A stretch of 64,000 nt of DNA from positions 1-64,000 of the forward strand of contig FCOD02000009.1 of NCBI GenBank assembly GCA_001544655.2. Direction: 5' to 3'. A program made the translations under genes and the position numbers. The stretch is from Caballeronia turbans (GTDB taxonomy: Bacteria; Pseudomonadota; Gammaproteobacteria; Burkholderiales; Burkholderiaceae). This document shows positions 29,075-37,758 of this stretch, in pieces. Position 1 is the stretch's first letter, and every line of letters starts with the position of its first letter. Below the pieces are notes generated by a model. The model made no database searches, was not told the DNA's origin, and saw only the letters and a program-made list of their open reading frames with translations.

Positions 29075-29090
29075 GCGAAGCACGCTTCGC
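29075..29090. promoter_or_regulatory. Candidate upstream activator site 1
   Basis: GCGAAGC-AC-GCTTCGC is a 16-bp perfect palindrome about 108 bp upstream of the sigma-54 promoter. It shares the core GCGAA-N6-TTCGC with a second site 43 bp downstream, about four turns of DNA. This is a likely binding site for the sigma-54 activator encoded at the end of the cassette. Confidence 0.55.
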
Positions 29091-29117: not shown

Positions 29118-29133
29118 GCGAAGCGGCATTCGC
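29118..29133. promoter_or_regulatory. Candidate upstream activator site 2
   Basis: GCGAA-N6-TTCGC, with the left arm extended to GCGAAGC as in site 1. It lies about 65 bp upstream of the sigma-54 promoter. Same spacing and arms as site 1 make a shared dimeric regulator likely. Confidence 0.5.
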
Positions 29134-29197: not shown

Positions 29198-29213
29198 TGG
29201 CACGACCTTCGCA
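29198..29213 (+). promoter_or_regulatory. Sigma-54-type promoter of the cassette
   Basis: TGGCACG-ACCT-TCGCA matches the sigma-54 consensus TGGCACG-N4-TTGCW with a single mismatch and keeps the invariant GG (-24) and GC (-12) at the correct distance. It lies 57 bp before the ATG of the first cassette gene. The activator gene at 36403-37758 supports this reading. Confidence 0.7.
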
Positions 29214-29269: not shown

Positions 29270-30199
29270 ATGCACGATATCGGAAGTTCCCGGCCCACCG
29301 GATGGGGCCCCGGCTATAACGAGTTTGAGCAGGAATTGTCGGCTGAAGCGGCGGGCGAGACGGCTCAGGAATTCGAGGGCGAAGGCGAGTTCGAAACCGA
29401 GTTCGAAGTCGGCGAAAGCGAGTTCGAGAACGAATTCGAAGGCGAAGTCTCGGGCGAAATGCAGGAGATGGAACTCGCCGCCGAACTGCTCGCCGTCAGC
29501 AACGAACAGGAGATGGAACAGTTCCTCGGCGGGTTGATCAAGTCCGTCGGACGCGCGGCGACGAACTTCGCGAAGTCGTCCGCGGGCAAGGCGCTCGGCG
29601 GCATCCTGCGCTCCGCGGCGAAGTCCGCGTTGCCGATCGTCGGCAGTGCGCTCGGCAACTTCGTGGTGCCCGGAGCCGGCGGGCTGATCGGCGGCAAGCT
29701 CGCGAGCATGGCCGGCAGCGCGCTGGGTCTCGAACTGGAAGGGCTCAGCAACGAGGATCGTGAGTTCGAAGTCGCGCGCCGTCTCGTGCGCATCGGCCAG
29801 CATGCGACCCAGCATCTCGCGTCGATGCCCGCGCACGTGCCGCCCGCCCGCGCGGCGCGCATCGCGTTCCTGCGCGCCGCGCGTCAGGTTGCGCCGGGAC
29901 TCGTGCCGGCAATGCGCGCGATCTCGCGCAACGGCATCGCGGCCGCGCGCCAGGCGCCTGTGGCGATCTTCGGTGCCCCCGCGCGCCGCTATCCCGGCCA
30001 GCGCTATGCGCCGGGCGCGTACTACGACGGCGCCGCAACCGCATCGGCCTACGAGGGCTCCGCGCCCGCCGCGAGCGCGCCTTGCCCGAACTGCGGCACG
30101 CATACGCAGGTCGCGATGCCTCACAGCGGGCAATGGCGTCGTTCACGCAACGGGCGGGCCATCATCCTCTATCTGGGCCCGCGCCGTACGGCGTACTGA
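29270..30199 (+). CDS. Acidic low-complexity protein with hydrophobic Gly/Ala-rich core
   Basis: This is the first gene of the cassette; I do not recognise a characterised family. Of 309 residues, about 15-70 are an acidic, repetitive stretch of E-F-E-G units. Residues 82-150 are rich in Gly, Ala and hydrophobics with GG pairs (FLGGLIKSVGRA, GAGGLIGGKLASMAGSALG), reminiscent of membrane-active peptides. Then come basic amphipathic helices (about 160-230), a Tyr/Gly/Pro-rich linker and a lone CPNCG near 270. No signal peptide is seen. The ATG follows AAAAGGAGCG. A role as a membrane-active effector or structural protein, held soluble by its acidic end, is only a guess. Confidence 0.85.
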   Translation: MHDIGSSRPTGWGPGYNEFEQELSAEAAGETAQEFEGEGEFETEFEVGESEFENEFEGEVSGEMQEMELAAELLAVSNEQEMEQFLGGLIKSVGRAATNFAKSSAGKALGGILRSAAKSALPIVGSALGNFVVPGAGGLIGGKLASMAGSALGLELEGLSNEDREFEVARRLVRIGQHATQHLASMPAHVPPARAARIAFLRAARQVAPGLVPAMRAISRNGIAAARQAPVAIFGAPARRYPGQRYAPGAYYDGAATASAYEGSAPAASAPCPNCGTHTQVAMPHSGQWRRSRNGRAIILYLGPRRTAY

Positions 30200-30218
30200 A
30201 CCGCGAGGCTCGAGTGCG

Positions 30219-31577
30219 ATGAACTCGTGTGAAGAAGCGCTGCGTCTGCTCGAACAAGAGGTGCTCGGCATCCGGGCACGGCTCGACGCGCAACTCCCGT
30301 ATGCCCTGCAGATGCCGATGGTGCCCGCCGCGAACGTCAGCGACGAAGCGATGGGCGCCATCGAACGGCACATGCAGGCGGCCCGCCAGCAACTGCGCAA
30401 GCGCATCGCGCAATTTCTGCGGCAGTTGCGCACGCTCGCGGCCACGCCGGCGAACGTGGCCCGGGCGCAGCGCCGCCATGCGCTCCTGAAGCTGTATTTC
30501 CAGGCCGCGCTCACGCATTTCGAGATTTTCGCGGAGGTGCTCACGCAGCGCAGCCAGCACGGCACCGGCATCTGGCTCGCGGGCCTCGATGTCGCCGCGC
30601 AGGACGGCCTGCGACAGCCGGGCGTGCCGGTCGCGCCGCCGCCTGTCATCTGCTACGTCGAGCGCGGGCACGGCGGCGCGATACGGCGCGCGCGCACGCG
30701 GCTGCCGGGCGGCGGCAACAATCCGGTCGCGGTGATTCGCATGCCGCGCGAGCGGATGGTCGGCACGGGCATCGCGGCGTCGCTCTATCACGAAGTGGGG
30801 CATCAAGCGTCGGCGCTGCTCGATCTCGCCAACGCGTACAAGCGCGCCTCGCCGTCGCGTTTCGTGCGCGGGCCTTCGATCTGGCGCGCCTGGGATCGAT
30901 GGATCGGGGAGATCGTCGCCGATCTGTGGGCGGTGTCGCGTGTGGGCATCGCGGCGAGCGTCGGGCTGATGAGCGTCGTGAGCCTGCCGCGCGCGTTCGT
31001 CATGCGCATCAATCTCGACGACCCGCATCCCGCGCCGTGGATACGCGTGAAGCTCTCCGTCGCGATGGGCCGCGCGCTCTATCCGCATCCGCAGTGGTCC
31101 GCGCTCGAAGCGGTGTGGGAGCGGCTTTATCCGCGGATGCAGATGAGCGCCACGCAGCGCAGTTCGTTCGATGCGCTGTCGCGTGCGATTCCACGCTTCG
31201 TCGCCGTGCTGCTGTCGCTGCGGCCGCATGCGTTGCGCGGCCGGACGATCGGCGCCGCGCTCAGTCTGCCGGACCGTCATCCCGAAGCGCTGCTCGCGCT
31301 CTGGCAACGCGTGAAGGCGCGGCCGCAGCAATTGCTCGCGGATACGCCGGCGCTGTCGTTCGCCGTGCTTGGGCAGGCGCGCTACAGCGGTCTGCTGCCG
31401 GCGCAGACGGAGTTGAAAGTGATCGCCGAGCTGCTGCAACGCTGGGCGCTCGCGGGTTATCTGCCCTGGAGCGCGGGCAGCACGCAACTGAGCGTCGCGC
31501 TCAATCAGCGACGGCCGCCCGCAACCTCGCCTCACGCAAGTTCGCTGCACGCAAACCCATTCGCCGCATACGCATGA
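30219..31577 (+). CDS. Putative HExxH zinc metallopeptidase of the cassette
   Basis: This 452-residue protein is not of a family I can name. The N-terminal 130 residues are helical and rich in Gln and Arg. A strand (VICYVERGHGGAIRRARTRL) leads to the zinc motif HEVGH (SLYHEVGHQASALLDL, about 188-203), and 40 or so residues later IGEIVADLWA supplies acidic residues that could complete the site as in gluzincins. The remainder is helical. There is no signal peptide. The gene starts 19 bp after the acidic protein gene and 20 bp before the 714-residue orphan, so it belongs to the same transcript. It might process the first gene's product. Confidence 0.82.
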   Translation: MNSCEEALRLLEQEVLGIRARLDAQLPYALQMPMVPAANVSDEAMGAIERHMQAARQQLRKRIAQFLRQLRTLAATPANVARAQRRHALLKLYFQAALTHFEIFAEVLTQRSQHGTGIWLAGLDVAAQDGLRQPGVPVAPPPVICYVERGHGGAIRRARTRLPGGGNNPVAVIRMPRERMVGTGIAASLYHEVGHQASALLDLANAYKRASPSRFVRGPSIWRAWDRWIGEIVADLWAVSRVGIAASVGLMSVVSLPRAFVMRINLDDPHPAPWIRVKLSVAMGRALYPHPQWSALEAVWERLYPRMQMSATQRSSFDALSRAIPRFVAVLLSLRPHALRGRTIGAALSLPDRHPEALLALWQRVKARPQQLLADTPALSFAVLGQARYSGLLPAQTELKVIAELLQRWALAGYLPWSAGSTQLSVALNQRRPPATSPHASSLHANPFAAYA

Positions 31578-31597
31578 TTTCATGAAGGAGCACAACG

Positions 31598-33742
31598 ATG
31601 AGCACCATCTTATTTCCGGGCGTGCTGCAACTGAAGATCGATGGGGACGATCCCACCGATCCCGGCAACTACACCGTGCAGATATCCGTCGAAACGCTCG
31701 CCGCCACCGAGCGCAACGCGAAAGGCCTGCTGCTGCGACGCGCCGGCTTCACACCCGCGAAGCCGGCCGCCGTGAGCGCGGGCGGTTCGATCGACGGCGC
31801 GCTCACGCTCTACACGAATCCGGACAAGGCGAGCGAGCTGGACGCGGGCGACCTGATGCTGCAACTGGTCGATGCGCTCGGCGCGTTCGTCACGGCCGAC
31901 ACCGACCCGAACGTCATCACGAAGATGGCGGCGTTCCTGCTGCAGGGCGAGAACGTGAAGCTCACGGGCAAATTCACGGCGCCGCTCGATGCCGGGCCCG
32001 CGGCGGCGCCGGTGAATGCGCCGATGAACGCGGCGGTCGATCCGAAGCGCATCGAACGCATCAAGGTGGGCGCGCGGCCCCTTGCGAATCCCGCGTCCAT
32101 CGACCCGCTCGCCAACGAGCACCACGCCCTCGCGCCGCTCGCCGAGCACGCAGTGGCGCTGCCGGACCCGCCCGCATCCATCGAGGTCGACGACCAGGAC
32201 AACGGCGGCGATCTCATCGGCGAACGCTCGGGCGTGGTCAACGACAACAGGATGTTCAGCAAACTCACGCCGGTCACGATGCGCCGCGCGACGCTTCCGC
32301 TGACCGCCGACGTCGCGCTGTGGATCCTCATCAAGCGCAACGCCGACATGCTGTCGTGGGACAACTACACGCGCAATCTCGATCTGCTGTTCTTCACGGG
32401 AAAGAGTGTGGACGGCATTCCGCTCTACAACGAAGCCACGCGGCTGAGCCGCCGCCGCTTTCTGCCGTTCACCGATACGGAGGCGTATCGCGCGCTCAAG
32501 GTGGCGACCGAGGCGTTCGTCGTGACGTGGGGCGCGGTCGTGCAGAACGGCGACGACATCGTGATGCTCAAGGATCTGCTGATGGGCGACCAGCGCGCGG
32601 TGGCGCTCGCCAACGAGCGCCTCGGGCTCAATCTCAACACGACGGACGTGTCGATTCTCGCGGACATGTACTTCAAGGAGAAAGGCCAGCTCGACGATTC
32701 GCCGTCCGTGCCTTATCTGGAGCGCATCGTCAGTCAGTTGCAGGGCACGGGGGCGGGCGAGATCGCCGTCGAAATGACGAAGGAGATTCGCGGCGAGCGG
32801 AGCGATCAGTGCGGCGGCAAATGCCTCTGGCTCACGCAATGGAACAACAACTACTCCGCGAAGCTGTTGCACCCGCCGCTCGTCGAACTGATCTGGAGCT
32901 ACTGGATGGAAGAGCTCCAGCTCGTGCAGACGATGAACGCGGTGTCGCGGCGCTTCCAGAACATCTCGAGCGGCCCGCGCGATCCGCTCGGCCAGCTCGA
33001 GCTCGATTCGCTTCGGCCCCTGAACAATCTCATCTGGGGCTGGGTGCAGGACGAGCAGCATCGTCTGCCGATCGAGCGGCGCGCGGCGGAATACGCGCAT
33101 CAATACGGCCTGCAACTGTTCGGGCGCGCCGTTCCGAAGATGCGTACCGCCGATAACCGCAGCAAGTTCCTCGAAGCGTTCCACACGCTGCTGAACTTGT
33201 GCGTGCCGTTCTTCCGTCAGGCCGACGACACCACGGTCGTGCCCGACGGATTCCCGATCCTGAACGCGCTGCGCGAAGTGCATCTGATCCTGTCGGAAGG
33301 CGCGCACAACCAGTTCCTCGATCTGCCGACGACCTCGCGCATCGAAATGATGATGCAGCAGTGGCTGCTCGCGCGGCCCGAATTCCGCGAGTATCTGCCG
33401 CGCCGCGCGATGGTCGCGTATCCGGAGCCGTGGATGCATTCCGTCGAAAGCATGCGCAAGCTGCAAGGCTGGGGCGACACCAACTCGTTCCAGTTCTGGC
33501 AGCTCGCGACGATGGGCGAGCAGATCGTCTCGTCGATCCGCTGGGGCGACTGGAACTCGATCAACGATCCAGCCAATGCCGCGAACTGGGCCACGTTCTT
33601 CCGGCCGGAGATCCAGGCGTACATCCACTCTTACCGCGCGGTGACGGGTGTGGACGTGAGTGCGGAACCGGTCGATGTGCAGGTGCCGGGCATTCATCTG
33701 CTCAGGCGTCTGCGCGAGCGGCGCGGCAGTCTCGCGGCGTAA
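31598..33742 (+). CDS. 714-residue orphan protein of the cassette
   Basis: This is the largest gene of the cassette and matches nothing I recognise. The N-terminal 150 residues look beta-rich (LFPGVLQLKIDGDDPTDPGN, GSIDGALTLYTNP, ENVKLTGKFTAP), then an acidic linker, then about 500 mainly helical residues with many Trp and Tyr (SYWMEELQLVQTMNAVSRRF, WQLATMGEQIVSSIRWGDWN). A single CGGKC lies near 404. There is no signal peptide or membrane span. The ATG follows AAGGAG. It could be the scaffold or modifying core of the system. Tight spacing to both neighbours supports one operon. Confidence 0.85.
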   Translation: MSTILFPGVLQLKIDGDDPTDPGNYTVQISVETLAATERNAKGLLLRRAGFTPAKPAAVSAGGSIDGALTLYTNPDKASELDAGDLMLQLVDALGAFVTADTDPNVITKMAAFLLQGENVKLTGKFTAPLDAGPAAAPVNAPMNAAVDPKRIERIKVGARPLANPASIDPLANEHHALAPLAEHAVALPDPPASIEVDDQDNGGDLIGERSGVVNDNRMFSKLTPVTMRRATLPLTADVALWILIKRNADMLSWDNYTRNLDLLFFTGKSVDGIPLYNEATRLSRRRFLPFTDTEAYRALKVATEAFVVTWGAVVQNGDDIVMLKDLLMGDQRAVALANERLGLNLNTTDVSILADMYFKEKGQLDDSPSVPYLERIVSQLQGTGAGEIAVEMTKEIRGERSDQCGGKCLWLTQWNNNYSAKLLHPPLVELIWSYWMEELQLVQTMNAVSRRFQNISSGPRDPLGQLELDSLRPLNNLIWGWVQDEQHRLPIERRAAEYAHQYGLQLFGRAVPKMRTADNRSKFLEAFHTLLNLCVPFFRQADDTTVVPDGFPILNALREVHLILSEGAHNQFLDLPTTSRIEMMMQQWLLARPEFREYLPRRAMVAYPEPWMHSVESMRKLQGWGDTNSFQFWQLATMGEQIVSSIRWGDWNSINDPANAANWATFFRPEIQAYIHSYRAVTGVDVSAEPVDVQVPGIHLLRRLRERRGSLAA

Positions 33743-33760
33743 AGAGAAGAGGGGCGCGCG

Positions 33761-34897
33761 ATGATCGACTTCGCTTCCGCGCTGTATCTCGGCATGCGGC
33801 ATCCGGCGGGCGCGCTCGGCACGTGGGACGCGCTCACGACCGGGCTGCCCGCCGCGCTGGCGGCCGCGCCGCTCGCCCGCCGCGTCGCCGCCGATGCCGC
33901 GTCGCTGCAGGGCACGGAAGCGGGCATGGTCGGCGCATCGACGCTGCATCTGGCGATCGATGCGTTCGACCGGCTCGGCCGCACGCATGCGCTGATCGCC
34001 GATGACGCGCTGTATCCGGTGATGCGCTGGGCGCTCGAGCGGATGATGGGCCGGGGCGTGCCGGTAACGTGGTTCAGGCACGGCGACGCCGCCGATCTCG
34101 CGCATAAGCTCGGGCGGCGCGCGGCGGCTCGCCCGCCCGCCGTCGTCACCGATGCGACCGTCGGCGATGGCGTGCCCGCGCCCATCGAACGATATGTGAA
34201 CGCGGTACGGCGCGAAGCGGGGCTCGTGCTCGTCGATCACAGTCAGGTGCTCGGGCTGACGGGTGAGCGCGCATCGTCGCGCAGTCCGTGGGGGCAGGGC
34301 GGCGGCGGCGCCTTGCGGCATGCCGCGTTGACAGCGCCGTCGACGCAGCCGGTGCTGCTGCTCGCGTCGTGGGCGAAGGCCTTCGGCGCGCCGCTCGCGA
34401 CGCTGTGCGGGCCGGCGGCGCTGATCAACGATATTGCCCGCGATGGCCCCGCGCAATCGCATTGCAGTCCCGCGAGCGCCGTGGCGCTGCTCGCCGCGCT
34501 CGCCGCGCTCGCGATCAACCGCCGCGCGGGCGCACGGTTGCGGCTGCGGCTGTTGCATCGGTTGCATCGTCTGCATGACGGGCTGCGCGCGCTCGCGCGG
34601 TTCGCCGTGCCCGATCTGCATGTGTCGGGCCGATGGCACCCGCTGCAACGGCTCGAACTCGCGAGCGACGAACGAGCGCTCGCGCTGCATGCGGGCTTGA
34701 TCGCGCGCGGCATGCGCACCGCGCTGCTGCGTCAGCGCGGCGGCGGCTACGCGCTGATCGTGATCGCGCGGGCCGATCATCGCGTCGCGGACATCGACGC
34801 GCTGCTCGACGCGATCGCGTCGCTCGCGCCGCGCCTTCCCGCTGCGAGGGGTGTCGCGCGGCGCATTACAGCATCTACGGAGATCGAGCATGTTTAA
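33761..34897 (+). CDS. PLP-dependent enzyme of the oxoamine-synthase fold
   Basis: This 378-residue fold-type I PLP enzyme resembles 8-amino-7-oxononanoate synthase and 2-amino-3-ketobutyrate ligase. The PLP-contacting Asp is in VLVDHSQVLGLTG (about 160), and the Schiff-base Lys is in LLASWAKAFGAPLATLCG (about 208). It is somewhat short for the family (usually about 390-400) and rich in Ala and Arg. Oxoamine synthases join an amino acid to an acyl-CoA. No biotin or threonine genes are nearby, so its substrate here is probably specific to this cassette. GAGGGG precedes the ATG; its stop overlaps the next start by 8 bp. Confidence 0.85.
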   Translation: MIDFASALYLGMRHPAGALGTWDALTTGLPAALAAAPLARRVAADAASLQGTEAGMVGASTLHLAIDAFDRLGRTHALIADDALYPVMRWALERMMGRGVPVTWFRHGDAADLAHKLGRRAAARPPAVVTDATVGDGVPAPIERYVNAVRREAGLVLVDHSQVLGLTGERASSRSPWGQGGGGALRHAALTAPSTQPVLLLASWAKAFGAPLATLCGPAALINDIARDGPAQSHCSPASAVALLAALAALAINRRAGARLRLRLLHRLHRLHDGLRALARFAVPDLHVSGRWHPLQRLELASDERALALHAGLIARGMRTALLRQRGGGYALIVIARADHRVADIDALLDAIASLAPRLPAARGVARRITASTEIEHV

Positions 34898-35651
34898 GAC
34901 CGCGGACGGACACACACTGGAGCTCGCGCCGTGGCGCATGCGCCGGCTCATGCGGCTCGTCGCGCAGGCGCGGCGCACGCCGCCAGGCATGAGCTCGCGC
35001 ACGCTCGGGCAGGACATGCAGATCCTGCTGCGGCGCGCACGGCGCGTGAGCGCCGACCCTCATCGCGGGATCGTGCGTTTCGAAAGCTCGGGCGCGTGCT
35101 GTCGCGCGTGCTTTCTCGCGCGGCAGAAGCGCGATGCGATGGAGATCGTCGCGCTTGCGGTCGCGCCGGGCGCGCATGTGCACGAGCAGGAAGCCGGAGG
35201 TTTCGGGATCGACTTCGAATCGATGCCGAAGTCGGCGAACATCACGCTCGCATGGACGCCTTACGACAGTCTCGAAAGCGCCGCGAAGAACGTGCGCGGG
35301 AAAGGCGTCTATATCCTGACGCGCGGCGGCAAGCCTCGCTATGTGGGCAAGTCGCTCGATCTCGCCGGGCGCATGCGCACGCATCGCCTGTATGCGACGC
35401 AGCACGGCGCCGGCCTCGGCGTGTGGGTGGCCAATACGCGCTCGCCGGAACAGGCGGCGGCGGTCGAGCACGCGCTCGTGAGGACGCTGGGCCGCGGCCT
35501 GACGAACTCGAAGCTGCATGGCGACATGCGAATCGGCAAGCGCGGGCTCGATATCAACGGTCTGCTGCCGACAGTGTTCGGAACCTACGAAAAGGCCCCG
35601 GGAAACCGGGCATTCCGCAAGCCGGGTGGAATTTTCGAGCTCGCGCCATGA
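34890..35651 (+). CDS. GIY-YIG-like protein of the cassette
   Basis: This is a 253-residue protein. The middle (about 135-200) has the GIY-YIG nuclease pattern: GVYILTRGGKPRYVGKSLDL, then a catalytic-type Arg in GRMRTHR and a Glu in VEHALVR. The first 110 residues are basic and include CCRACFLARQKRD, a possible metal or structural Cys cluster. The end (PGNRAFRKPGG) is basic. Its start overlaps the PLP gene and its stop overlaps the amidohydrolase gene as ATGA, so all three are translationally coupled. A nuclease in such a set could act as an effector or on host DNA or RNA; this is unproven. Confidence 0.8.
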   Translation: MFKTADGHTLELAPWRMRRLMRLVAQARRTPPGMSSRTLGQDMQILLRRARRVSADPHRGIVRFESSGACCRACFLARQKRDAMEIVALAVAPGAHVHEQEAGGFGIDFESMPKSANITLAWTPYDSLESAAKNVRGKGVYILTRGGKPRYVGKSLDLAGRMRTHRLYATQHGAGLGVWVANTRSPEQAAAVEHALVRTLGRGLTNSKLHGDMRIGKRGLDINGLLPTVFGTYEKAPGNRAFRKPGGIFELAP

Positions 35652-36409
35652 TCATCGACTTCCATGTACACGCGGGCCAGGGCGACGGCATGACCGGTCC
35701 GTGGGACACGACCGCGCCGCTCGCCGCTTACGCGCGCCGCGCGACACGCGCGGGCATCGCGCGTTCGGTGCTGCTGCCGGTGTTTCAGTCCGACTACGCG
35801 CGCGGCAACCGCGATGTCGCGGCGATCGTGCGCGCGGACCCGCAGCGCTGGATCGGCTTTGCGATGGTGCATGCCGAGCGCGACCGCGAGCGCATTCATC
35901 GCATGATCGAGGAAGCCGTGCTGATGCTGGGCCTGCGCGGGATCAAGGTGCATCGGCACGACGCGCGCATTCATCGGCAGGTCTGCGATGCCGCGCAACG
36001 CTGGAATCTGCCCGTTCTCTACGATCCCGGCGGCGAAACGGGCGGGCTGGAGCTGCTTGCGCAAACGCATCCGAATGTCGCGTTCGTGTTCGCGCATCTC
36101 GGCAGCTTCGCCGATGACTGGGCCGCGCAGCGGCGCGTCATCGATCTCATCGTTCGATATCCGAATCTGTATGCCGATACGTCCGGCGTGCGGCGCTTCG
36201 ATCTGCTCGAAGAAGCGTTTCATCGCGCGGGGCCGCGCAAGCTGCTCTTCGGCACCGACGGCCCGTGGCTGCATCCGGGGCTCGAACTCGCGAAGATCCG
36301 CGCACTCGAGCCGTCGCGCGAAGCGTTCGACGCCATCGCGGGCGGCAATGCGATGCGCCTCCTCGCGCGCTCGCGCGTCATGGCGGCGCCGCGCGCGGCC
36401 GCTCACTGA
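35648..36409 (+). CDS. Amidohydrolase family (TIM-barrel) protein
   Basis: This 253-residue metal-dependent hydrolase is of the amidohydrolase_2 type. The first metal motif is IDFHVHAGQ (HxH at about 5-7), further ligands are in GIKVHRHD and FVFAHLGS, and the conserved acidic motif is LLFGTDGPW (Asp at about 213). Such proteins open lactones or decarboxylate or hydrolyse small ring compounds. No signal peptide is seen. It is the last gene of the cassette operon, coupled by ATGA to the gene before and ending 7 bp into the convergent activator gene. Confidence 0.9.
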   Translation: MIIDFHVHAGQGDGMTGPWDTTAPLAAYARRATRAGIARSVLLPVFQSDYARGNRDVAAIVRADPQRWIGFAMVHAERDRERIHRMIEEAVLMLGLRGIKVHRHDARIHRQVCDAAQRWNLPVLYDPGGETGGLELLAQTHPNVAFVFAHLGSFADDWAAQRRVIDLIVRYPNLYADTSGVRRFDLLEEAFHRAGPRKLLFGTDGPWLHPGLELAKIRALEPSREAFDAIAGGNAMRLLARSRVMAAPRAAAH

Positions 36410-37758
36410 CCTGCTTCGGACGGCCGCATCTGACGACGCAACTGCAGCGCGCGCGGCGTGACGCGCAAGAGTTCCGCCGCGCGGCTCGTCGATCCGGCGC
36501 GACGCTCGGCCAGTTCCACGGCAAGCGTCTCCGCAATCTGCCCGATGTTCTTCAGCCCGAGTCCGGCGTCGAGCGCGCCTTCGATTGCGAGCGCGAGCGC
36601 CTGCTCCCATCCGCTCACGCTGACGGAGGGCGCGCCGGGCGTGAAGGCGTCGCCCAGACAGCCGGTGCTCAGCACCCGAAAGCCGCGCTGCCTGTCCGCG
36701 AGGCGCAGCACGACGTTGCGCAGCTCGCGCACGTTGCCCTGATAGTCCGCCGCAACGAGACGCTGCATTACTTCGGGCATGACCTGCGGCGCGGCATCGC
36801 CATGTTCGGCGAGAAAGTGTGCGACGAGCAGCGGGATATCGTCGCGCCGCTCGGCGAGACTCGGCGCGCGCACGGTCCATCGCGCGATGCGGAAGTACAG
36901 GTCGTTGCGAAAGCGCCCGGCGAGCACTTCGCCTTCGAGGTCCCGATTGGTCGCACAGGTGAGACGGAAGTCCGACTTGCGCCACACGTCTTCACCGATG
37001 CGCTTGTACGTGCGTTCCTGAATCACGCGCAGCAGACGCGCTTGCAAACGCGGCTCCAGTTCGCCGATTTCGTCGAGAAAGAGCGTGCCGCCGTCGGCCA
37101 TTGCGACGGCGCCATCGCGCGCGCAGACGGCGTGCGTGAATGCGCCTTTCGCGTGACCGAAAAGCTCGCTGCCCGACAGTTCCGGGCTGAGCGTCGTGCA
37201 ATCGACGACGACGAACGGCCCGCGCCTTCGCACCGGATCGAGATCGTGCACGAGGCGGGCGAGCAGCTCCTTGCCGCAGCCGCTTTCGCCGAGCAACAGG
37301 CAAGCGCCGTCGCCGAAGCGGCCGATTTCCGCCACCGTGCGCAGCGTGTTGCGCCAGATCGTCGACGTGCCGACTGCGCGCTCGCGCAGCCATTCCGAAT
37401 CGAGGATCGACTCCATCTCCGCGAGACGCGCGACACGTCGCGCGATTTCATCGAGCAGCAGGTCGTCATCGCGGGCAAGCACCATGTCGCACAGCGACGC
37501 GGGCCACCATGCCTCGGGCTGGCAGTCGGCGCGCGTGGCCGGCGTGCATCCGACGATGAAGCCCTCCGGCAACGGATGACGCCGCAGCCAGCGCGCGGCC
37601 GCATCGGCGACCCGGTTGCCCTGCGCGATCACGACGACCACGTATGGGCCCTCGCCCGTCGAACCCATTTCGACTTCGTGAGGGACGCCGCGCTCGCGCA
37701 ACGCTGCATCGAGCGCGCGCGGATCGTCGTGATGCAGAACGATGCGCATCGCGTTCAC
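36403..37758 (-). CDS. Sigma-54-dependent transcriptional activator
   Basis: This 451-residue bacterial enhancer-binding protein has an N-terminal 130-residue sensor part (VVVVIAQGNRVADAA, not a clear receiver). The AAA+ domain has Walker A GESGCGKE (about 159-166), Walker B GGTLFLDEIGE, and the loop that contacts sigma-54 as GAFTHA in place of the usual GAFTGA. A Fis-type helix-turn-helix ends the protein (AELLRVTPRALQLRRQM). It is convergent with the cassette operon and overlaps its end. I infer that it activates the promoter at 29198. The Gly-to-His change in the loop is unusual. The first codon is GTG; an ATG three codons later is possible. Confidence 0.92.
   Translation of the reverse strand: MNAMRIVLHHDDPRALDAALRERGVPHEVEMGSTGEGPYVVVVIAQGNRVADAAARWLRRHPLPEGFIVGCTPATRADCQPEAWWPASLCDMVLARDDDLLLDEIARRVARLAEMESILDSEWLRERAVGTSTIWRNTLRTVAEIGRFGDGACLLLGESGCGKELLARLVHDLDPVRRRGPFVVVDCTTLSPELSGSELFGHAKGAFTHAVCARDGAVAMADGGTLFLDEIGELEPRLQARLLRVIQERTYKRIGEDVWRKSDFRLTCATNRDLEGEVLAGRFRNDLYFRIARWTVRAPSLAERRDDIPLLVAHFLAEHGDAAPQVMPEVMQRLVAADYQGNVRELRNVVLRLADRQRGFRVLSTGCLGDAFTPGAPSVSVSGWEQALALAIEGALDAGLGLKNIGQIAETLAVELAERRAGSTSRAAELLRVTPRALQLRRQMRPSEAGQ

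Follow-up and report, generated by a model that had tools for sequence, protein, structure and literature searches.

The closest described relatives of the gene cassette reported here are operons controlled by sigma-54 and a bacterial enhancer-binding protein (bEBP), in which an NtrC-type activator stands beside its target. The cassette consists of six genes that run in one direction and a sigma-54 activator gene that converges on them, at positions 29270-37758 of a 64,000-nucleotide stretch of Caballeronia turbans DNA (contig FCOD02000009.1, positions 1 to 64,000; hereafter the window), and it resembles such operons in its AAA+ activator, palindromic upstream sites and -24/-12 promoter-like site. 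Unlike them, it pairs one and the same operon with its entire circuit in several phyla, the sigma factor included in Actinomycetota. The AAA+ domain is also shared with RtcR, the CARF-AAA-HTH (HTH, helix-turn-helix) activator of RNA repair, but the N-terminal domain of the cassette activator is unmatched and its six neighbours are without a PADLOC match.

Two further kinds of system bear comparison. Polymorphic toxin and contractile-injection effector sets (compare PMC3482391) place variable peptidoglycan or nuclease cargo beside constant genes as the cassette does, but in the cassette neither a delivery apparatus nor an immunity gene was recognised in the annotated parts of the loci. Actinobacterial ternary conflict systems (PMC7159879) likewise pair a zincin-like peptidase with a neighbouring variable precursor, which in one type is acidic, but they have a C-terminal peptide motif and a vWA component where the cassette has an N-terminal leader and other partners. 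No paper naming the present gene set was found by title and abstract opening in the open-access PubMed Central (PMC) literature, and the absence of a published name, on which an earlier note on this DNA had staked its novelty, holds to that extent. Actinobacteria have been said to be without a sigma-54 system (PMC3162934, in part), and the accessible part of a 2025 survey (PMC12316311) gives rpoN in 4 of 173 Actinomycetota, with one dropped as misclassified and three judged not bona fide, and concludes that Actinomycetota are effectively without functional RpoN. New here are the promoter-like and enhancer-like sites of the cassette and the predicted sigma-54 of its actinobacterial members.

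Results

The cassette and its activator recur together across phyla

The open frames of the six genes and the convergent activator were found in the window where the earlier note had put them (Table 1). The overlap of neighbouring genes that it described was seen at two of the five co-directional junctions (8 and 4 bases) and at the tail-to-tail pair of amidohydrolase and activator genes (7 bases), the other three junctions being spaced by 18-20 bases. All twelve nearer loci (L007-L018) keep the seven genes, their order and their orientation, so that the arrangement is not due to chance. Their hosts are Caballeronia, Cupriavidus, Paraburkholderia, Silvimonas and Pseudomonas sp. C2B4, so that co-occurrence in unrelated genera, which the earlier note had named as its own check, is found with the seven genes in the same order in the latter four genera. 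Remoter hosts were Oxalobacteraceae, Microvirga, Thiothrix, two Bacteroidota, Schekmanbacteria, Polyangiaceae, Kibdelosporangium, Paractinoplanes and a record named Rhodococcus rhodnii, and the acidic, HExxH and orphan proteins were found together in Actinomycetota, Bacteroidota, Myxococcota, Schekmanbacteria and three proteobacterial classes.

A pattern scan of a one-genome-per-species collection, made with one query and favouring close relatives, gave 26 loci; plasmid loci and further genome loci were added, and 38 loci were searched with profiles in six frames (counts for each family in Table 1). In 36 of the 38 an activator gene lay no more than 4.1 kb from the core genes, and 35 had the acidic, HExxH and orphan proteins all present with a nearby activator. 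The HExxH protein was not found in L024, where the locus sequence begins within the orphan gene, and the activator was not found in L019, where the contig ends about 0.5 kb past the last called gene. Outside the 38 stand L001, which is the window itself, L002-L004 and L006, which share coordinates with L007-L010, and L005 (genome G011), which was not included; nor were nine remote HExxH matches or the loci L061, L062, L099 and L102-L109 counted as cassettes. Sampling of whole genomes gave the same association of the acidic protein with the cassette: the four genomes with a strong acidic-profile match in a 349-genome sample of the window's phylum (its own included) all had the cassette, and in 188 genomes of the phylum of G108 the acidic protein was found in three, each time within a cassette. 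The orphan was present in 6 of 101 genomes in the set of the window's own genome and its relatives (own included), all of the window's genus. Weak acidic-profile matches in G779, G983 and G914, without a HExxH partner, were set aside as noise, and the match in G790 was taken for a remote relative and likewise left out.

In a tree of HExxH proteins, that of Pseudomonas sp. C2B4 falls among betaproteobacterial rows, and the seven actinobacterial rows require two changes, not one, with L095 pairing with a myxobacterial row; many remote branches are long and unsure. The genomic comparison strongly indicates that the cassette is a self-contained operon which has spread horizontally with a dedicated transcription circuit. 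The tree places the HExxH protein of L028 with two from Kibdelosporangium; the L028 record, titled Rhodococcus rhodnii NRRL B-16535, has a genome of about 12.4 Mb and may be misnamed.

Promoter-like sites and an often paired palindrome upstream of the first acidic gene

Of 31 cassettes tested, 29 have a sigma-54-like site ahead of the first acidic gene, including five from actinobacteria, and all 29 keep the GG-N10-GC element. Sites were scored with weights taken from the sigma-54 consensus and accepted within the top 5% of same-length windows from the same locus; by this measure none was found in two Bacteroidota loci, L019 and L031. These counts and those for the palindrome below omit 7 of the 38 loci (L021, L024, L063, L095, L097, L100 and L101), in which the start of the first acidic gene is cut off, uncertain or uncalled.

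Palindromes came to light in an alignment of five Caballeronia upstream regions, and exact GCGAA-N6-TTCGC was found in 26 of the 31 upstream regions of 400 base pairs (bp), with 35 sites in 12,400 bases compared to 1 in 666,553 bases elsewhere in the same sequences. Control spacers of 0-5 and 7-12 gave 0 or 1 sites upstream and 0-5 elsewhere. The remaining five cassettes each carried at least one site with one mismatch, for which the background rate was not established. Exact pairs were present in nine cassettes, eight of them at 41-44 bp and one at 20 bp. The motif was found across phyla; in the window's own genome it occurred 54 times, compared to 25 for the reversed control, and among the places listed the cassette's pair was the only one within 1 kb. 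These data strongly indicate that GCGAA-N6-TTCGC is a candidate enhancer specific to the cassette.

Actinobacterial cassettes carry a divergent sigma-54 gene

The Kibdelosporangium and Paractinoplanes loci have a sigma-54 gene immediately ahead of the acidic genes, and such a gene was found in all seven actinobacterial loci compared to none of the 31 others, with a profile built from five of the seven cassette proteins that also detects canonical sigma-54. Each of the seven genomes gave one Sigma54_DBD match, that of the cassette (in G614, 12 of 28 first-look candidates were scored). With at most 12 candidates scored per genome, a full sigma-54 match was confined to G104 and G614 among 298 genomes from the order to which G104 belongs, both times in cassettes, with short helix-turn-helix matches in three further genomes of the order, and a strong match was found among 296 genomes of the actinobacterial phylum in eight others (L045-L052; genomes of 1.8-4.0 Mb). 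The sigma-54s of these eight group with the canonical type, and Actinomycetota are therefore not wholly without sigma-54.

The seven cassette proteins are like canonical RpoN in their core-binding (CBD) and DNA-binding (DBD) domains and in an RpoN-box-like motif (7/7), but they form one separate clade (99/98) apart from the 13 others compared, carry a CxxC...CxxC (Cys4) insert (6/7, compared to 0/13 others) and have an N-terminal region I that appears degenerate by eye. The Pfam cut-offs for both CBD and DBD were passed by L027, L032 and L063, and DBD was over its cut-off in all seven; among these three, which were scanned for AID (region I), only L063 gave a match (0.025, under cut-off), the scanned translations of L027 and L032 beginning at a late start codon. 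The upstream motif was exact in four of the five actinobacterial loci tested and had one mismatch in L028, and all five had good promoters. It can be argued from the GAFTGA loop of their activators (6/6), the upstream motif (4/5) and the promoters (5/5) that the cassette sigma-54 factors work. The comparison strongly indicates that the operon brought its own divergent sigma-54 into the seven actinobacterial hosts, where another full sigma-54 was undetected.

Variation in the activator

Eleven activators scanned matched no Pfam models other than AAA+ and HTH types, and the N-terminal part looks by eye like a pseudo-receiver. The loop read GAFTGA in 16, GAFTHA in 13, GAFTNA in 4 and GAFTDA in 1 of 34 aligned activators, with GAFTGA in all six actinobacterial proteins aligned, GAFTNA in two Thiothrix loci, one Saprospiraceae locus and G753, and GAFTDA in the second activator of L030. 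Loci with GAFTHA or GAFTNA loops keep promoter-like sites, the Saprospiraceae locus excepted.

Three core proteins with no convincing library match

The acidic, HExxH and orphan proteins had no convincing match in Pfam, NCBIfam, PHROGs or PADLOC, the best being of the acidic protein to an unnamed PHROG (0.0017). No PDB sequence was matched at E up to 1 by a profile of either the orphan or the HExxH family. All 21 HExxH sequences aligned share H191, E192, H195, E231 and D235, and the HExxH and downstream ExxxD motifs are visible by eye in the remote relatives L062, L099 and L109 too; the protein is predicted to be a gluzincin-like zinc metallopeptidase. No phage relative of it was found, nor was any of 29 pattern matches in viral contigs confirmed as one. 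Charge is segregated along the acidic proteins, with a leader of net negative charge in 21/22 and a core of net positive charge in 22/22; conservation covers their helix, core and C-terminal GxW motif, and some loci have two or three copies of the gene. The invariant HExxH residues together with this charge segregation make it plausible that the acidic protein is a precursor or effector and the HExxH protein its processor.

Kinship of the orphan to its positional counterparts in remote HExxH loci was considered and dropped, as three profile comparisons gave E of 0.043, 0.089 and 0.15, with probability of about 1% or less. Such remote HExxH relatives make up a second locus type (L099, L105-L109), in which nearby proteins have acidic or SPF-rich leaders and in some cases tyrosinase with PG_binding_1, VanY or NLPC_P60 domains, and neither activator nor sigma-54 was found there with the cassette profiles. 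In L062, on a plasmid of Bradyrhizobium quebecense, a remote HExxH relative (5.5e-19) lies amid an S8/S53 peptidase, a patatin, a PLD, two CHAT proteins and a GMC oxidoreductase.

Optional enzymes and a variable slot

Among the seven window proteins only the amidohydrolase (Amidohydro_2, 4.6e-21) and the activator (Sigma54_activat, 2.1e-51) reached curated Pfam cut-offs. The pyridoxal phosphate (PLP) enzyme is distant kin of 8-amino-7-oxononanoate synthase (3.7e-11, far under cut-off in Pfam/NCBIfam) and is absent from 9 of the 38 loci, the amidohydrolase being absent from 12. Between the PLP enzyme and the amidohydrolase or activator lies a slot whose content varies. It holds a GIY-YIG-like protein in the window and its relatives, Amidase_2 with GIY-YIG-like in L021, Amidase_2 in L030, PG_binding_1 with DUF2272 and Glucosaminidase in L060, PG_binding_1 with GIY-YIG in L058, PG_binding_1 at cut-off with a muramidase match under cut-off in L019, PG_binding_1 in L101 and an M20 peptidase in L028; beside L100 lie an extensin-like protein and a GDSL-like one whose match is under cut-off. 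The GIY-YIG protein, which the earlier note had read as an effector or guard, is no core member and occupies a position that elsewhere holds peptidoglycan-binding or cell-wall proteins. Its Pfam match in the window is weak (0.0038) and, as in L021 and L024, under the curated cut-off, which the L058 slot protein exceeds (25.7 vs 22.6); Y141, Y151, G153, R161, E193 and N206 are conserved in at least 90% of 14 such sequences.

A scan for domain models covered non-core proteins within or next to 15 of 23 remote loci; those of L020, L022, L023 and L098 gave no domain match, that of L094 matched only under cut-off, and L025 has an upstream ABC protein. A strongly hydrophobic (Sec-like) N-terminus was found in none of 11 slot or flank proteins, three of them from remote HExxH loci, on a crude scale without calibrated threshold or positive control (highest 1.44, L019); a non-classical route or cell lysis would therefore be implied if slot proteins act on the wall. 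A cysteine motif in the first 95 residues was found in 18 of 342 genes in or beside cassettes compared to 0 of 206 outside (p 0.00025). In the form ACCxAC or CxCxxC it is common to otherwise unrelated slot or acidic proteins of the window (34890-35651), L024, L030, L058, L098 and L100.

Table 1. Elements and genes of the Caballeronia turbans cassette, with the number of loci in which each family was found.
Feature	Coordinates	Strand	Description
Upstream activator site 1	29075..29090		GCGAA-N6-TTCGC palindrome
Upstream activator site 2	29118..29133		Same GCGAA-N6-TTCGC palindrome, 43 bp from site 1
Sigma-54-like (-24/-12) promoter	29198..29213	+	TGGCACGACCTTCGCA, GG-N10-GC
Acidic-leader protein, 309 amino acids	29270..30199	+	FE-rich acidic leader, cationic glycine-rich core, conserved C-terminal GxW motif; 38/38 loci
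HExxH protein, 452 amino acids	30219..31577	+	Predicted gluzincin-like zinc metallopeptidase (HEVGH...ExxxD); 37/38 loci
Orphan protein, 714 amino acids	31598..33742	+	N-terminal part variable, C-terminal part (~490 residues) conserved; 38/38 loci
PLP-dependent oxoamine-synthase-like enzyme	33761..34897	+	K206, D159 conserved; 29/38 loci
Variable-slot protein, here GIY-YIG-like	34890..35651	+	N-terminal ACCxAC cysteine motif; GIY-type profile match 20/38 loci
Amidohydrolase	35648..36409	+	Amidohydro_2, HxH motif; 26/38 loci
Sigma-54 activator	36403..37758	-	N-terminal domain without Pfam match, AAA+ with GAFTHA loop, weak Fis-like HTH; 37/38 loci, near the core genes in 36

Discussion

We propose that the activator acts through the GCGAA-N6-TTCGC sites, often paired 41-44 bp apart, and would drive the sigma-54 promoter ahead of the acidic-protein gene, the operon supplying its own divergent sigma-54 in actinobacterial hosts; this regulatory half of the explanation we consider very probable. 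The functional half, that the operon is a processing and export module for cell-wall-active or nuclease proteins, is a tentative suggestion drawn from the wall-type and GIY-YIG slot proteins without an obvious Sec signal and from the proteins with acidic leader and cationic core. The operon would make and handle such exported proteins, with the acidic proteins as charge-masked membrane-active carriers or pores, the HExxH metallopeptidase processing them, the orphan as obligate partner or scaffold, the variable slot encoding cargo, and the PLP enzyme and amidohydrolase as optional tailoring enzymes. Taken as a whole, regulation and function together, the explanation is quite possible without yet being probable. 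Of the earlier interpretation, the cassette and its sigma-54 control stand, on the co-occurrence across phyla and the promoter-like and enhancer-like sites, and the modification or antagonism system is conjectural.

Several observations weigh against this explanation. On the regulatory side, the clade of the window has a GAFTHA loop and not GAFTGA (the window and the 12 nearer loci), cassette loci within one clade are not independent, and the activator of L023 lies 8.9 kb off at the end of the contig, with none nearby, and is probably unrelated to the cassette. On the functional side, peptidoglycan-binding or -hydrolase models were found in 6 of the 15 scanned remote loci and several others were blank, 13 of the 18 carriers of the cysteine motif belong to one GIY lineage, the acidic core lacks the hydrophobicity of a clear transmembrane helix, the selected genes annotated in the loci included no recognised immunity gene or secretion apparatus, and the PLP enzyme and amidohydrolase fit no clear place in an export model. 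Enrichment of an acidic leader among other cassette genes was not significant in one setting (1/93 vs 0/251, p 0.27) or in three others, and a general leader is not claimed; the three others gave 2/93 vs 1/251 (p 0.18), 3/93 vs 4/251 (p 0.39) and 1/93 vs 0/251 (p 0.27).

The same genes can be read as an envelope-remodelling operon and not a weapon, in which peptidoglycan enzymes, a PLP enzyme with a lipid-like product and the amidohydrolase would adjust the producer's own surface under stress. Sigma-54 has been argued to govern the bacterial exterior (PMC3162934, in the part available), several slot proteins appear wall-active and immunity genes would be unnecessary; however, the slot varies and includes GIY-YIG-like proteins, and the PLP enzyme and amidohydrolase are each missing from the loci counted above, and we regard remodelling as unlikely. 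More doubtful still is a bacteriocin-like precursor, with the acidic proteins as product, the HExxH protease freeing the cationic glycine-rich core, and the PLP enzyme and amidohydrolase modifying that core. The charge-balanced architecture of the acidic proteins, their two or three paralogues in some loci and the conserved HExxH...ExxxD residues would suit such a peptide, but a conserved cleavage site was not identified in proteins whose helix, core and GxW motif are all conserved, an exporter or immunity gene was not recognised among annotated locus genes, and both modifying enzymes are dispensable.

An ordinary catabolic or biosynthetic operon, with the hypothetical proteins as enzyme subunits, appears very improbable: two to three enzymes are recognisable, but they are the dispensable members, and the constant core is without an enzyme match apart from the metallopeptidase motif. 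A phage-defence or RNA-repair-like system, suggested by the AAA+ part of the activator scoring best against RtcR-type models (PADLOC RtcR_PspF2 3.6e-74; NCBIfam RtcR 3.5e-78), seems very improbable as well, as these matches span only residues 118-437 and the NCBIfam score, at 264 bits, falls far short of the RtcR cut-off of 650; RtcR membership was rejected. None of the other six window proteins gave a PADLOC match, nor any Rtc-type match in Pfam, NCBIfam, PHROGs or PADLOC.

Returning to the processing and export module, a wider form of it, which we put forward as somewhat unlikely, is that the cassettes would be mobile systems of a class not named before, which have an activator and an enhancer code of their own (and in Actinomycetota a zinc-ribbon sigma-54 too) and export wall hydrolases and nucleases by means of acidic-leader glycine-rich carriers and a new metallopeptidase; the three actinobacterial rpoN genes set aside in PMC12316311 would then be such cassette factors. 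The analysis defines three widespread protein families that have no convincing model in the libraries searched, and the upstream motif offers a DNA handle for locating further cassettes. The cassette sigma-54s qualify the published conclusion that functional RpoN is effectively missing from Actinomycetota, and a complete sigma-54 circuit, of activator, upstream sites, promoter and, where needed, sigma factor, apparently moves between phyla as one unit.

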